Origin: Enterovibrio baiacu | GTDB lineage: Bacteria; Pseudomonadota; Gammaproteobacteria; Enterobacterales; Vibrionaceae | DNA length: 64,000 nucleotides | Reading direction: 5' to 3' | Assembly: GCF_004120195.1 (NCBI RefSeq) | Contig: NZ_SCHN01000022.1 | Coordinates: forward strand, 1-64,000 | In this document: positions 89 to 53,374 of the stretch, piece by piece | Layout of the letters: every line of letters starts with the position of its first letter | Numbering within the stretch: the first letter of the stretch is position 1 | Position numbers and translations under genes: made by a program | The notes under the pieces: model-generated | What the model was told of the DNA's origin: nothing | The model's input: only the letters and a program-made list of their open reading frames with translations | The model's database searches: none

Positions 89-208
89 TGCTTGGCGACC
101 ATAGCGTTATGGACCCACCTGACTCCATGCCGAACTCAGTAGTGAAACGTAACAGCGCCGATGGTAGTGTGGGGTTTCCCCATGTGAGAGTAGGACATCG
201 CCAGGCTT
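89..208 (+). rRNA. rrf: 5S ribosomal RNA
   Basis: A roughly 120-nt 5S rRNA of Vibrio type: it starts TGCTTGGCGACC, contains the conserved CCGAACTCAG and GTGTGGGGTTTCCCC segments, and ends with ATCGCCAGGCTT, which pairs with the 5' end. The 88 bases before it look like the spacer that follows 23S rRNA, so this is the promoter-distal end of an rRNA operon whose 16S and 23S genes lie outside the window. A rho-independent terminator follows 11 bases later. Confidence 0.97.
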
Positions 209-9029: not shown

Positions 9030-10637
9030 CTAAATACTGAACTTAGCCAGTTGATGCCTTCCTGTATCACTCAGCGTTTTCACTTTGTCGCTCAAGTTCA
9101 ATGTATCCTCACTGGCATCACGGTTGTGGTGAGAAATGTCACTGACGTTGACCACACTGCGCGCAACCTCTTGCGACGCAGAAGCTTGCTGCGATGTAGA
9201 TGCTGCGACTGCCGTGTTCATTTGCTCGAGTTCTGTAATCAAGGCAGACAGCGCAACCAATTGAGTTTGCGTCTGTTTGGCTTGATCGAGGCTTTCTGCG
9301 GTTTTATCCGTGCCTCTGCTCATGATTCTTGCCGCGACTTGAGCGCGTTCTTGCAGGGTTTCGATAATCGCGTTGATTTGCGTCGTGGACTCTTTTGTCG
9401 AATGCGCAAGCTTGCGCACTTCATCGGCAACAACTGCAAACCCCCGACCCGCACTGCCTGCACGCGCCGCTTCGATGGCAGCGTTCAACGCAAGCAAGTT
9501 AGTTTGCTCGGAAATGTCATTAATCACGGTCACAACATCGCTGATTTGATCGCTAGACGCCGCAAGCTCCCGAATGTTTTTCTCCGCATCAATCACATCA
9601 AGGTTCACTTGCTCAAACTTGTTCAGCGAGGCCGATAAGGCAACTTCCGCCTCTCTTACCAAGCCCTTTGAATGGCGTGTGCCATCTTGCGCTTGTAGCG
9701 TGCTGGCTTCTACGTCCTTGATCGCTGAAGACATCTCTTCCATGGCACTGGCGACGGAATCGAGTTCTTGGCTTTGGTTGCGAATACCATCGGTTGAACG
9801 GTTGGCAAGATCGGCCATGGTACGACTATCAGCATCAAGCTGGTGGAGTGTCTGATCCACGTTCGTCAGCAGTGATTGAAGTTGGGAACAGGCTTCGTTG
9901 AGGTGCTGTGCCATTTGACCCAATTCATCGTTGCTGTTTACGTTAGCGCGCGCCGTCAACTTACCCTGTGCAACATCATTGAGTGCACTCTGAATATCTT
10001 TGACGGATTTTACCAACATACGAGACAGCAACGTTGATACCAGAATCAGCAATGCTGTGATGCACAGGGCAAGCAGGGCTGACTTGCTGGCTTCTTGCCA
10101 AACCAGAGCTTCCAAGTCGTCAATGTATATCCCTGTGCCGATTAAAAGTTGCCAAGGTGCATGCCGTTTAACCGCACTGACTTTTTCGAGCGCTTCTTTA
10201 CCGCCGGGTTTTGCAAACCAATAGCTGCTGAAACCACCATTCATTGAGGTGGCAGCGTTGCGCATATCATTCAACACCGCGGAGCCGTGGCTATCACGAA
10301 ACGTCGAGAAATCTCGGCCAATCCAGCTCTTCGCGCCCGCAAGCATCGTGCCGCTGTCATCGACGACAAAGAAATAGCCATCTTTGCCAAACACCAAGGG
10401 TTGTATGGCTGCCATTGCCTTTTTTCGGCCTGTATCAGAGGCATCAGATTGATAGTGCGTGTCGATGACTTTCCACGCAATATCGACGGTTTGTTTGAGG
10501 TTGGCTTTTCTTTCTTGGAGTAAGTCTTTGTGAAGACTAGAAATTTGAAAGGCGGTTAACCCAACGATGCTAATCACCGAGACTGCTGCAATGAGCAGTA
10601 ATTTATATCGAACCGAGAGATCTGCAATAAATTTCAT
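9030..10637 (-). CDS. Methyl-accepting chemotaxis protein with a Cache sensor
   Basis: A 535-residue chemoreceptor. Order: N-terminal membrane segment (about residues 11-30), periplasmic single-Cache domain ([20 protein letters not shown], then [13 protein letters not shown] and [16 protein letters not shown]), second membrane segment (about 185-205), HAMP ([12 protein letters not shown]), and the methyl-accepting signalling domain with the hairpin tip [18 protein letters not shown] then [15 protein letters not shown]. It would pass ligand signals to CheA/CheW. The sCache family binds small organic acids and similar ligands; the ligand is unknown. No CheR-docking pentapeptide is seen at the C-terminus. 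It stands alone between recC and recB, convergent with recC and divergent from recB. Confidence 0.95.
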
Positions 10638-31869: not shown

Positions 31870-32050
31870 AAAAAAAAGCACCGAGCCATAAGCTCAGTGC
31901 GCGATAAATCTTTGTGTAGATAGTATGAAATATACGCAGCGTATATAAAAATGTAGCTAATGCTACCGAGGCTCGGTAAAGCCGAAAAAATGCAAACACA
32001 ACATCGCAACCAAGAAAAACCGTGCGTAGGGTACGCTTGTTCATTGGTGC
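31870..32050 (-). ncRNA. gcvB: GcvB small regulatory RNA
   Basis: About 180 nt on the minus strand, divergent from gcvA as in E. coli. The G/U-rich target-binding R1 is present: GTTGCGATGTTGTGTTTGCA (approximately 32010-31991), close to the E. coli R1. Further agreement: a 5' hairpin (GCGTA CCC TACGC), a stem-loop GTAGC ATTA GCTAC followed by a T run like the E. coli GGTAGCAAAGCTACC element, an AU-rich palindrome ATATACGC/GCGTATAT, and a terminator GCACTGAGC / GCTCGGTGC (31878-31900) followed by eight T. GcvB with Hfq represses many amino-acid and peptide transporter mRNAs by pairing through R1; GcvA usually activates it. The exact 5' end is inferred from the promoter. Confidence 0.88.
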
Positions 32051-32056
32051 CCGCGA

Positions 32057-32085
32057 ACTATAGGTTTTCTCTGGTGACAGAACAA
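32057..32085 (-). promoter_or_regulatory. Promoter of gcvB
   Basis: On the minus strand TTGTTC (32085-32080), a 17-base spacer, and TATAGT (32062-32057); transcription would begin near 32050. This is the optimal sigma-70 spacing. The GcvA start at 32137 is about 50 bases upstream, leaving room for GcvA binding and for the opposing gcvA promoter. Confidence 0.75.
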
Positions 32086-42623: not shown

Positions 42624-42685
42624 ACGGTTTTGCCACGGATCGATTAGAATGCGCAAAGTTTACTGAATCTTGAGGAATCTTGCTA

Positions 42686-43231
42686 ATGAATCACTCTGTC
42701 ACTCACGCGCTTTGGTCATTCAGCGAGCGCTTTGTCTCTGCGTGGAACGATCAACATGGCTCAAAGCCACAAAGCGATGCGTATCTCGGCCTTGAATCGC
42801 CGTGCATTGTGCAAGAGACGGATGATGTAGTGATTTGGCAGCCCATTCAGCGTGTTGAGTTCGCCGATTTTAGCAATGTTGAAGCTGGCATTGGGATTTC
42901 GCTTCATGAAGACGTGACTTCTTTTTACGCAGGCCTGTACTGCGGCGACATGACGGCACAATTTGAAGGTTTGAGCCTTGAGCTGATTCAGGTGTGGAGT
43001 GATGAAGACTTACCGCGCTTGCAAGAAAACATGTTGGGGCATTTGCTCATGCAAAAGCGCTTGAAGCAAAATCCAACCGTGTTTATTGCTGCGACGAATG
43101 ATGAGTTGGATGTGATTTCCATTTGTAATATCACGGGCGAAGTCATCAAAGAGCGCATTGGCACCAAGATCCGTGATGTGCTTGCGCCAAACGTAGAAAC
43201 CTTCCTTCAACGCCTCTCTCCAGAGGTGTAA
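42686..43231 (+). CDS. syd: SecY-interacting protein Syd
   Basis: A small cytoplasmic protein (181 residues) that binds SecY and may check translocon integrity. Family motifs: VTHALWSFSERFVSAWN, YLGLESPC, VEAGIGISLHEDVTSFYAGLYCGDM and IQVWSDEDLPRLQENMLGHL. The ATG at 42686 has GAGGAA upstream. It runs divergently from queF and four bases ahead of a zinc-ribbon protein gene. In E. coli syd is also beside queF and near csrB. Confidence 0.95.
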   Translation: MNHSVTHALWSFSERFVSAWNDQHGSKPQSDAYLGLESPCIVQETDDVVIWQPIQRVEFADFSNVEAGIGISLHEDVTSFYAGLYCGDMTAQFEGLSLELIQVWSDEDLPRLQENMLGHLLMQKRLKQNPTVFIAATNDELDVISICNITGEVIKERIGTKIRDVLAPNVETFLQRLSPEV

Positions 43232-44395: not shown

Positions 44396-44629
44396 TCAGG
44401 ACTTTCTGAGCAGGGTATCAAGTGTGTCTATTTGTTCGGTCCAATCCGCATCTTGGAGTTGTGCTTCTTCGAGAAACTGACGTTGACTGACTGACCAAAA
44501 CTCTGCAGAAGTTAGCGCTTGTCCTTCGGTGAGAGGGTGGTTTGCTATAAAGGAAGAAATAGCCTCTCCGTCAGAAGGTAAACCGAGTTGTTGAAAAAGA
44601 CTCTCGAGATTATGTGTAAACACTTCCAT
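44396..44629 (-). CDS. DUF2789 family protein
   Basis: 77 residues with the DUF2789 pattern: LESLFQQLGLPSDGEAISSF, then FIANHPL, FWSVSQRQFLEEA and DADWTEQIDTLDTLLR. A small acidic soluble protein of unknown function. GGGAGATAACC precedes the ATG. Its promoter region abuts the csrB locus. Confidence 0.85.
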   Translation of the reverse strand: MEVFTHNLESLFQQLGLPSDGEAISSFIANHPLTEGQALTSAEFWSVSQRQFLEEAQLQDADWTEQIDTLDTLLRKS

Positions 44630-44802: not shown

Positions 44803-44820
44803 TGTGAGATATCTCTTACA
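44803..44820. promoter_or_regulatory. UvrY/VarA (GacA-family) binding site upstream of the first csrB copy
   Basis: TGTGAGATATCTCTTACA differs by one base from the E. coli UvrY site upstream of csrB (TGTGAGAGATCTCTTACA) as I recall it. It lies 149 bases upstream of the conserved csrB start. The same 18 bases, inside a 23-base identical stretch, recur at 45644. Confidence 0.88.
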
Positions 44821-44934
44821 AGATCGTGCGCATTTCATGCTTTTGATTGTGGTTATTACACGTGACTCGCAATTAAATCTTTTAAATACATAAGCTTAAA
44901 AATATCTCTTCAGAGTTAAATTGAAAGTGTGACT

Positions 44935-44964
44935 TTGATCGCTAATCAGTGTCTTGTTTAGAAT
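44935..44964 (+). promoter_or_regulatory. Candidate promoter of the first csrB copy
   Basis: TTGATC (44935-44940), an 18-base spacer and TAGAAT (44959-44964). Transcription would begin near 44971, at the point where similarity to the second copy starts. Confidence 0.5.
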
Positions 44965-44969
44965 TCGCG

Positions 44970-45408
44970 TTAGCGTAATCTTCTCGGTGTCGGAAGGATA
45001 CTGACACACGGAACAGGAACTAACACCACGGACTTGGTCGCTCAGGATGAGCAAGTAATGCAAGGATTGTGTTACTAGCAAGGAAAGCGGAATTAGGGAC
45101 ACGGATGGAACCGTAGCAGCGAATAGGATATTTGCTGGTCAGGAAGACACTTAGGACAACCCAGGATGGGGGCTTAAGGAATCACTTCAGGACGAAGTTA
45201 AGGACACCCTCAGGATGAGGACGAGAATCGAGACAGGAAAGCTCGATGGGTCATGGTAAGACCGAAGGACACCTCCAGGACGGAGAGATAAGGAAAACGC
45301 TGAAGGATTCAGCCACTGATCAAGGATTGATGCAGGGAGCACTTTCGTAGCAGGACAGCTGCAAGTAAGACCTCTAGGGCGCGACTATATGTCGCGCCCG
45401 TTCTTTTT
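44970..45408 (+). ncRNA. csrB: CsrB-type small RNA, first copy
   Basis: About 440 nt with around 21 AGGA motifs, many presented in small hairpins (for example CAGGATG, CTCAGGATGAG, CAGGACG), the binding sites of CsrA/RsmA. It ends in a perfect terminator GGGCGCGAC / GTCGCGCCC (45377-45399) and TTCTTTTT. CsrB titrates CsrA and thereby changes motility, biofilm, virulence and carbon storage. No open frame of note runs in it. The gene lies between syd and yqcC/truC, the E. coli csrB neighbourhood. A UvrY site lies 149 bases upstream, and a candidate promoter is at the 5' end. Confidence 0.94.
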
Positions 45409-45643
45409 CTGGGGTTGGAAAACTCATTCTTCCCCTCTGTCTGATTAACGCTGCTTACTTTCTTTTTCTCTTTTTCTTTCTTTTGAATCGAAATGCCCAT
45501 CTTTCGTTTATTTGTCGTTGGCGTTTAATCGGAAAACACTCTATTAATCCCTCGTTCTTGATGGAAAATTGGCTTTTTTAACTGCCCAAAGTTTTTACGC
45601 GCTATAAAAAATGGCTCGCGTTGAATGAAATGGCTGATGAGCG

Positions 45644-45661
45644 TGTGAGATATCTCTTACA
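45644..45661. promoter_or_regulatory. UvrY/VarA (GacA-family) binding site upstream of the second csrB copy
   Basis: The identical TGTGAGATATCTCTTACA, 150 bases upstream of the second csrB copy. Only the box and a few bases around it are conserved with the first promoter region, so the site and its spacing appear to be kept by selection. Confidence 0.88.
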
Positions 45662-45811
45662 AGTGTGTGGGATAATCGGTTTGTTATCTTTAGCTATCTT
45701 TGTTTTATGGTCTTTTAAGTGTCATAAAAACAAGGGGTTATGATTTCCTGGTGTTTTATGGTGTGATTGTGTGATGAAAATCACTCTGAGGTGAGTTGTT
45801 TCGTCACGAAG

Positions 45812-46250
45812 TTAGCGTAATCTTCTCGGTGTCGGAAGGATACTGACACACGGAACAGGAACTAACACCACGGACTTGGTCGCTCAGGATGAGCAAGTAA
45901 CGCACGGATTGTGTTACTAGCAAGGAAAGCGGAATTAGGGACACGGACGGAACCGTAGCAGCGAATAGGATATTTGCTGGTCAGGAAGACACTTAGGACA
46001 ACCCAGGATGGGGGCTTAAGGAATCACTTCAGGACGAAGTTAAGGACACCCTCAGGATGAGGACGAGAATCGAGACAGGAAAGCTCGATGGGTCATGGTA
46101 AGACCGAAGGACACCTCCAGGACGGAGAGAATAAGGAAAACGCTGAAGGATTCAGCCACTGATCAAGGATTGATGCAGGGAGCACTTTCGTAGCAGGACA
46201 GCTGCAAGTAAGACCTCAGGGCGCGACTATATGTCGCGCCCGTTCTTTTT
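45812..46250 (+). ncRNA. csrB: CsrB-type small RNA, second copy
   Basis: Near-identical to the first copy, with the same terminator stem GGGCGCGAC / GTCGCGCCC (46219-46241). One change (AAGGATTG to ACGGATTG) weakens one AGGA motif, the rest remain. The sequence just before its start (TTGTTTCGTCACGAA) lacks the TAGAAT seen in copy one, so the two promoters may differ in strength. Either name, csrB2 or csrC, would suit; I keep csrB. Confidence 0.93.
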
Positions 46251-46297
46251 CTGGCATTCCCAAACGGTGCAAATCGCCTTGTTTGCAATGCGCTGGT

Positions 46298-46603
46298 TTA
46301 CTCTTCAGGCATCGGATAAGCGGGCATAAACACTTCTTGTAGCCTCATGCCTTTCATCACGGCATACCCTTGATAACAATCCAATCCATTCACTGAAAAT
46401 TCGAAAAAATACCGCGTTTGGATATTCAATGGGCCTTTTGGCCAACCAAACGTGTGGTTTCCTCGTGCAATAGAAACCAGCTGAACCCCCACTTGCTGAC
46501 AGCGGCGATTAATGTATTGCTTTGCGAGCTCACTTTGACGGCGCTGTTGCCAAAAGAGGCTCGCAACAACGGCGATTGCGATGATCCAAAATAAATCACT
46601 CAT
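46298..46603 (-). CDS. DUF3301 family membrane protein
   Basis: 101 residues: one N-terminal membrane segment (MSDLFWIIAIAVVASLFW), then a small domain with QLVSIARGNHTFGW and TRYFFEFSVNGLDCYQGYA. Matches DUF3301, function unknown. It starts in overlap (ATGA) with the stop of the DUF3549 gene and so is translationally coupled to it. Its stop is about 45 bases from the end of the second csrB copy, to which it is convergent. Confidence 0.82.
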   Translation of the reverse strand: MSDLFWIIAIAVVASLFWQQRRQSELAKQYINRRCQQVGVQLVSIARGNHTFGWPKGPLNIQTRYFFEFSVNGLDCYQGYAVMKGMRLQEVFMPAYPMPEE

Positions 46604-47820: not shown

Positions 47821-48147
47821 ATGAGCCAACACCAAGATGTAAAGGTGCTGCTGGTCAGTCTGCAGCAAGTACTCGAGCAACATGGGCACTGGCAATCAAT
47901 CCCTCCTTCTGATGAAGCCTTGTCGAGTGTTGAACCTTTTTCTGTTGATACCTTAACGTGTACCGAATGGCTGCAGTGGGTATTCATTTCGAAAATGCGC
48001 CAGTTGGTCGATCATGAATTGCCGCTTCCTTCGGCTTTCTCAATTTCGCCGTATGTTGAAGAAGCGCTTAATGGCGCGCATGGACGCGATGCGATTGCCC
48101 GCGTAACTCAAGATATTGACGCACTTTTCCAAACCTCCTCTCAGTGA
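47821..48147 (+). CDS. yqcC: YqcC family protein (DUF446)
   Basis: 108 residues with the DUF446 pattern: VLLVSLQQVLEQHGHWQ, FSVDTLTCTEWLQWVFISKM and LPLPSAFSISPYVEEAL. Small helical protein of unknown function, upstream of truC by 12 bases as in E. coli, and close to csrB as there. Confidence 0.92.
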   Translation: MSQHQDVKVLLVSLQQVLEQHGHWQSIPPSDEALSSVEPFSVDTLTCTEWLQWVFISKMRQLVDHELPLPSAFSISPYVEEALNGAHGRDAIARVTQDIDALFQTSSQ

Positions 48148-53213: not shown

Positions 53214-53374
53214 GAAATACGCCTTCTTAGTAAATCTGCAAAACAGGTTCTAAGCAGGGGTGTTTCATTATTGATTAATATAACTCACACACATATCGAC
53301 ACATGCTCCGGGGTGCCCGTTTAGGGTCGGATGTATGGGATATGTGGAGGCCTAACCCCCTAGAGGAATTTAAA
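53214..53374 (+). promoter_or_regulatory. 5' leader of rpsB (S2 autoregulation region, t44-like)
   Basis: About 160 nt of untranslated leader between the promoter and rpsB. The GC-rich, structured second half (CATGCTCCGGGGTGCCCG ... GTGGAGGCCTAACCCCCTAG) occupies the place of the t44 / S2 leader known from gammaproteobacteria, where S2 represses translation of its own operon. The Shine-Dalgarno AGAGGAATTT lies nearest the ATG. The family match is from position and general look, not alignment. Confidence 0.55.

Follow-up and report, generated by a model that had tools for sequence, protein, structure and literature searches.

Sibling sponge RNAs raise the question of why several near-identical copies should be kept. 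Here we analyzed a stretch of 64,000 nucleotides (the window), in which two csrB genes stand in tandem between syd and yqcC, with one VarA/UvrY box ahead of each copy. The locus splits the answer in two: the RNA bodies are held uniform, whereas the promoters are free to diverge. Our preferred reading, to which we assign a probability of roughly 0.87, is that the tandem csrB pair is old, and that gene conversion keeps the bodies alike while the promoters diverge separately. That CsrB RNAs titrate CsrA and that VarA/UvrY drives most of them is established in relatives, according to the parts of PMC6262261 and PMC6550530 consulted. By analogy, we infer that the two window copies titrate CsrA and are controlled by VarA/UvrY as well.

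The csrB pair and its genomic context

Both copies scored above the gathering score of 71 for the Rfam CsrB family (RF00018), with covariance-model scores of 104.9 bits for copy A and 106.8 bits for copy B, which bears out their first identification as CsrB. Fold z values were -4.58 (copy A) and -5.39 (copy B), and none of 100 shuffles of either copy was equally stable. The count of only five differing events between the two 444-bp copies was also exact: three substitutions and two one-base indels separate the blocks (Table 1).

On the Syd/DUF2310 side the pair is bounded by a DUF2789 gene, and on the other by a DUF3301-DUF3549-YqcC-TruC block. DUF3549 of the window and of Enterovibrio norvegicus DSM 15893 shared 95% identity, and thus the window is from an Enterovibrio close to E. 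norvegicus, not from a Vibrio. E. coli csrB lies between syd and yqcC too, as one unit; compared with that single unit, the window has two csrB units, whose CRP-like sites stand at matching register. Elsewhere in the window, matches to GcvB (31870-32059, minus strand), t44 (53268-53356, plus strand; presumably the rpsB leader) and 5S rRNA (91-206, plus strand) were ordinary.

Table 1. Positions of the csrB units, their predicted elements and the neighboring genes in the window
Feature	Position	Strand	Remark
Syd, flank gene	42680..43231	+	Pfam PF07348
DUF2789 gene, left neighbor of csrB pair	44396..44629	-	Pfam PF10982
VarA/UvrY box, copy A	44803-44820	.	18-mer palindrome TGTGAGATATCTCTTACA
IHF-like site, copy A	44886-44898	.	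ATACATAAGCTTA; putative, weaker, same register as copy B
CRP-like palindrome, copy A	44928..44943	.	8/10 positions, TGTGACTTTGATCGCT; putative function
Predicted -35, copy A (TTGTTT)	44954..44959	+	From aligned promoters
Predicted -10, copy A (TAATCT)	44976..44981	+	From aligned promoters
csrB copy A, homology block	44969-45412		444 bp
csrB copy A, predicted transcript	44987..45408	+	~422 nt, 30 GGA motifs; predicted 5' end
Intrinsic terminator, copy A	45377..45408	+	Hairpin plus T run
VarA/UvrY box, copy B	45644-45661	.	Identical 18-mer TGTGAGATATCTCTTACA
IHF-like site, copy B	45728..45740	.	8/9 positions, AAACAAGGGGTTA; putative
CRP-like palindrome, copy B	45770..45785	.	9/10 positions, TGTGATGAAAATCACT; putative function
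Predicted -35, copy B (TTGTTT)	45796..45801	+	Putative
Predicted -10, copy B (TAATCT)	45818..45823	+	Putative
csrB copy B, homology block	45811-46254		444 bp
csrB copy B, predicted transcript	45829..46250	+	~422 nt, 30 GGA motifs; predicted 5' end
Intrinsic terminator, copy B	46219..46250	+	Hairpin plus T run
DUF3301 gene, right neighbor of csrB pair	46298..46603	-	Pfam PF11743
YqcC (DUF446), flank gene	47821..48147	+	Pfam PF04287

VarA/UvrY boxes and core promoters

The original prediction placed an identical 18-base UvrY-type site at 149 and 150 bases upstream of the two copies, and the coordinates agree: the box precedes the homology block by 149 bp in copy A and 150 bp in copy B, and box plus flanks comprise 23 nt identical between them. 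The assignment of a UvrY/VarA box to each copy is supported by its likeness to the UvrY inverted repeat of E. coli csrB, TGTGAGAGATCTCTTACA, from which the window 18-mer is one base off (PMC4682653, in the part consulted). The E. coli palindrome is centred at -183/-182 in that account; the window boxes lie similarly, with their centres some 175 bp ahead of transcription starts predicted near 44987 and 45829. Both copies carry the 18-bp inverted repeat far upstream that marks sRNA promoters of the BarA-UvrY and VarS-VarA systems. Allowing at most three mismatches, the 18-mer had one further match in the window (three mismatches, at 2713) and none in 100 shuffles; in the 5,371,326-base genome, a degenerate VarA-box pattern matched these two boxes only, and its backwards control matched nothing. 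The spacing from box to modelled body start was 169-171 in all 25 units compared (24 of the genus and one of Veronia pacifica). Having a box does not establish control by VarA: csrB1 of V. tasmaniensis carries one and yet is VarS/VarA-independent, as reported in the part of PMC6262261 consulted.

The promoters had been described as diverged except for this box, one of them without a -10 element. The divergence was confirmed, but the exception was too narrow, since TTGTTT, TAATCT (inside the block) and a CRP-like palindrome are common to both copies. TTGTTT and TAATCT are separated by 16 bases in each, and the supposed lack of a -10 in one copy was thus not supported. In the alignment of the same 25 promoters, the -35 place read TTG in all and TTGTTT in 20, and the -10 place read TAATCT in 23; GTAATCT or GTAATAT was frequent at the corresponding place in further genera. 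TAGAAT (44959-44964) was considered as a -10 and set aside: it occurred in only 2 of the 25 promoters (window A and E. norvegicus A) versus 23 for TAATCT, which makes it a poor candidate, and TAATCT was taken as the -10.

Measured from the predicted starts, the CRP-like palindrome (box +125/126) would have its centre at about -51 in each copy, which is not where CRP usually activates. A score of 9/10 was reached in 11 of the 25 promoters, all of them B-type (window B included), and A-type promoters scored at most 8; these 11 promoters are related and hence not independent. As a general csrB element the site was rejected, with a 9/10 score in none of the 107 promoters fetched from other genera. 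An IHF-like site at box +83/84, between box and promoter, is suggestive only. Its best match averaged 7.72 of 9 versus 6.94 in shuffled promoters, and at least 8 was reached in 16 of 25 promoters versus 15.8% of shuffles, the match being weak in window A; the shuffles used for IHF and CRP deal out 2-base blocks and keep dinucleotides only roughly. In E. coli, the consulted part of PMC4682653 describes a putative IHF site downstream of the UvrY palindrome of csrB, and csrC as being without one.

Distribution of the pair in the genus

Among 18 same-genus genomes, including that of the window, 11 had both csrB copies, three had a single copy and four had none at the locus. Both copies were on one contig in 10 of the 18, the pair of E. 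norvegicus DSM 15893 being split at contig ends. The single-copy genomes were E. calviensis and G. indica, with an A-type promoter followed by the DUF3301 side, and G. hollisae, with a B-type promoter. No copy was found at the locus in G001, G005, G016 and G017 (the last with a weak 28.5-bit match elsewhere); these genomes of 2.1-3.7 Mb, which we assume may be reduced symbionts, had a csrA match without inner stops. All 18 genomes had a csrA match. In G014, an 87%-complete assembly, it came in two pieces (G014:C17:64612-64766), one with an internal stop, perhaps due to a sequencing error. Outside these genomes, the V. pacifica locus (L103) showed, immediately upstream of its only full copy, a weak csrB fragment (9203-9350, minus strand; 20 bits, E 2e-5), which may be what is left of another csrB copy upstream.

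Discordant histories of RNA bodies and promoters

Identity between the A and B bodies within a genome was 97.4-99.5% in seven pairs, those other than the three with a divergent copy A described below. The original prediction had proposed comparing identity within and between species, and for the window this comparison favored the former: its bodies were 98.8% identical to each other, and their best match among the other genomes compared was 94.0%. One copy each in ZSDZ42 and G009 ran contrary, being closer to another genome's copy (98.6% and 99.1%, respectively) than to its own partner (97.4% and 97.9%). Promoters A and B of the window were only 44.5% identical.

Tree and column tests gave opposite groupings for the two parts of the unit. 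For the bodies of seven genomes, the best tree paired the copies by genome, and a tree with monophyletic A and B copies was worse by 332.8 lnL (AU p 4.7e-6). Among 100 variable body columns, none was position-diagnostic and 63 had A equal to B in all seven genomes; columns private to a genome and common to both copies numbered nine in the window, 14 in G014 and 1-3 in the other five genomes. For the promoters (about 240 bp upstream), on the other hand, the by-position tree equaled the best one, and grouping by genome was worse by 313 (six genomes), 404 (nine) and 306 lnL (seven, window included), with AU p values of 8.5e-4, 1.5e-5 and 3.9e-50, respectively. Strictly position-diagnostic promoter columns were few (three among 193 variable). 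The AU tests of both parts omitted single-copy genomes and E. norvegicus. FastTree placed promoter A of the window, together with that of E. norvegicus, next to the B promoters, and positional orthology of the window pair therefore rests on the long-branched IQ-TREE result. The FastTree support of the ZSDZ42 body pair was only 0.30, and the IQ-TREE trees carry no support values; the FastTree trees omitted the truncated copy B of E. norvegicus DSM 15893 (L042) and the weak Veronia fragment (L103).

Copy A of E. coralii, E. nigricans and E. sp. ZSDZ35 formed a clade of its own. It was 72.1%, 70.7% and 70.3% identical to copy B, respectively, and its box differed from the window 18-mer by two, three and three bases. 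When these three species were added to the body test, strict by-genome grouping was rejected too, by 258. The locus provides replicate natural experiments, among them these three species with an escaped copy A, which act as natural controls where homogenisation has stopped.

The fact that bodies group by genome and promoters by position points to an old pair under concerted evolution, most simply with gene conversion as the presumed process. Paralogues were closer than orthologues in a duplication older than the species, as concerted evolution is defined, copy A of the three species being the exception. Like the RNA family, the boxes and the tandem layout, the age of the pair is a matter of observation, since it follows from the discordance between bodies and promoters.

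Between a recent duplication with replaced promoters and gene conversion, the two readings first offered for the locus, the tree tests favored the latter. The contrast of 98.8% body identity with 44.5% promoter identity would be expected if the window's lineage had recently duplicated the gene and then replaced one promoter, and promoter A of the window is indeed unlike the A type of most relatives; however, the presence of the pair in 11 of 18 genus genomes and the positional orthology of promoters in the other genomes tested render such an event improbable. If each lineage had instead re-duplicated the gene independently, by birth and death and not by conversion of one old pair, the bodies would also group by genome, and the three single-copy genomes, of which E. 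calviensis and G. indica have a layout fitting an inter-repeat deletion or a collapsed assembly, are in line with this. Re-duplication would copy the promoter with the body, whereas the promoters are old and position-specific, and we regard this history as quite improbable.

Strong purifying selection on the RNA alone, with no conversion, might keep the copies alike, because CsrB function constrains hairpins and GGA sites, and five of the seven genomes have only 1-3 private columns common to both copies. Constraint creates no private shared changes, however, such as the nine columns of the window and the 14 of G014, nor does it agree with a copy A only 70-72% identical to copy B in three species; the body tree test and the column counts disfavor it as well, leaving it very little probability. 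Finally, an assembly artefact, which had been named as a possible refutation, is hardly credible: the two copies and a unique spacer lie with distinct flanks within one 83,670-base contig, and further assemblies, among them the 3-contig genome G009, show the pair again, even if the E. norvegicus DSM 15893 assembly does break inside the repeats.

Under concerted evolution of an old pair, the locus may work as follows. Each unit consists of a VarA/UvrY box, a spacer of about 150 bp, a predicted sigma-70-type core promoter, a predicted CsrB RNA of about 422 nt that contains 30 GGA motifs, and a terminator. Transcription of both copies would be switched on by the binding of phosphorylated VarA, and both RNAs would sequester CsrA. 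The pair is older than the divergence of the Enterovibrio and Grimontia species carrying both copies; gene conversion between the copies would keep the bodies alike in each genome and stop short of the upstream DNA, so that the promoters could diverge, keeping mainly functional elements in fixed register. The benefit might be dosage plus separate inputs.

A third CsrB-type RNA

A divergent third CsrB-type copy was found outside the pair (G000:C11:43830-44138, L046), with 55.6 bits, below the cut-off of 71. Judged by eye from translations, the genes beside it resemble cytochrome c and engB(yihA) on one side and a methyltransferase and yihI on the other, which corresponds to the neighborhood of E. 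coli csrC. No VarA box with at most four mismatches was found near it, and among 15 csrC-like loci searched for the box, the only match was at L055, 1.8 kb away. Thus, if VarA acts via the box, the pair would be the only such CsrB-type target found.

Comparison with known systems

Multiple CsrB RNAs are known from Vibrio (csrB1-4) and V. cholerae (CsrB, CsrC and CsrD); they have comparable 18-mer boxes and are mostly controlled by VarS/VarA, and their genes are in general nearer to orthologues than to paralogues, according to the consulted parts of PMC6262261 and PMC6550530; in contrast, the window bodies are nearer to the paralogue. Duplication of csrB in Vibrionaceae is itself described in PMC6262261, where, in the part consulted, csrB3 of Aliivibrio salmonicida lies beside csrB2 and is interpreted as recently duplicated (one sentence on these copies prints 'Aeromonas'), and csrB2 of V. 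nigripulchritudo clusters with csrB1 of its own genome. The A. salmonicida genes resemble the window pair in being adjoining csrB copies in Vibrionaceae, and the view that a tandem pair at syd/yqcC is the point worth recording therefore stands only in part, neighboring copies being already in print. The words tandem, gene conversion and syd do not occur in the main text of PMC6262261. Our results suggest caution: in trees of csrB bodies, a pair of long standing can pass for a recent duplication, and the published interpretation of the A. salmonicida copies may be affected by this.

A duplicated sponge RNA gene is likewise found in the Gac/Rsm system of Pseudomonas brassicacearum (rsmX-1 and rsmX-2), although the rsmX RNA is about 110 nt long in the consulted part of PMC7911923, unlike the much longer CsrB of the window. 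Within open-licence literature, a scope that makes absence weak evidence, we found no paper naming both Enterovibrio and csrB and none on csrB and concerted evolution; a single paper mentioned csrB and gene conversion, once each, in connection with REP sequences.

csrB arrays in other Vibrionaceae genera

We also analyzed 40 loci of other genera of the family, which were picked mostly for having at least two csrB matches on one contig among the matches listed and thus give no frequency. Arrays of 2-4 promoter-plus-csrB units were found, and 102 of 107 boxes lay 169-174 bases before the body start (exceptions: L105, one; L123, two; L132, one; L141, one). Genera g7, g10 and g12 are taken here to be Photobacterium, Aliivibrio and Vibrio, respectively. 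In genus g5, none of the window's flank genes accompanied the arrays within the sequence fetched, and one locus (L104) had four copies.

In g10, a neighboring csrB pair was present in nine of 14 genomes; unlike the window pair at syd/yqcC, these pairs had no flank gene of the window beside them as far as the sequence was fetched. For eight of the nine pairs (G073, whose first copy is without its middle, and the Vibrio pair were omitted), promoters grouped by position, the by-genome tree being worse by 302, and an older pair is thus likely in g10 too. Both simple groupings were rejected for the g10 bodies (worse by 55 by position and by 40 by genome). Among the matches listed for 41 g12 genomes, from which weak matches were lost by the filters, only G248 had two copies within about 2.5 kb, with bodies 99.2% and promoters 60.3% identical.

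The 36 g7 loci comprised 24 with three copies and 12 with two (one of the latter, L132, with a further box and a partial match), and in 34 of them the array was bracketed by flank genes of the window, which stood on one side only in L108 and L132. In 24 of the 36, the closest body pair was 90-100% alike while the promoters of the same pair were 35-52% alike; the closest body pair was 86-87% alike in L109 and L139, and 60-66% in L116, L117, L127-L131, L136, L141 and L142. L112 had a second pair whose promoters were 79% alike. In nine of the 36 loci (L108, L110, L112, L114, L118, L122, L125, L137 and L138), the two copies of the closest pair were, by identity, more alike than either was to any copy of another genome, and in others some near relative matched as well or better.

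It is plausible, at about even odds, that csrB arrays of Vibrionaceae serve as a dosage device with separable inputs, in which 2-4 units per locus have a homogenised sponge and promoters that evolve alone, and that some g7 units also vary CsrA-binding capacity by means of an internal repeat. Some g7 copies contained an internal tandem repeat of about 50 nt of CsrA-site motifs (L121, L142, L117, L133, L120 and L138), which reached 7.5 units at 96% in L121. The csrB of L142 was up to 938 nt long, with 68 GGA, and the middle copies of four related loci measured 443 (L140), 543 (L120), 593 (L133) and 743 nt (L121).
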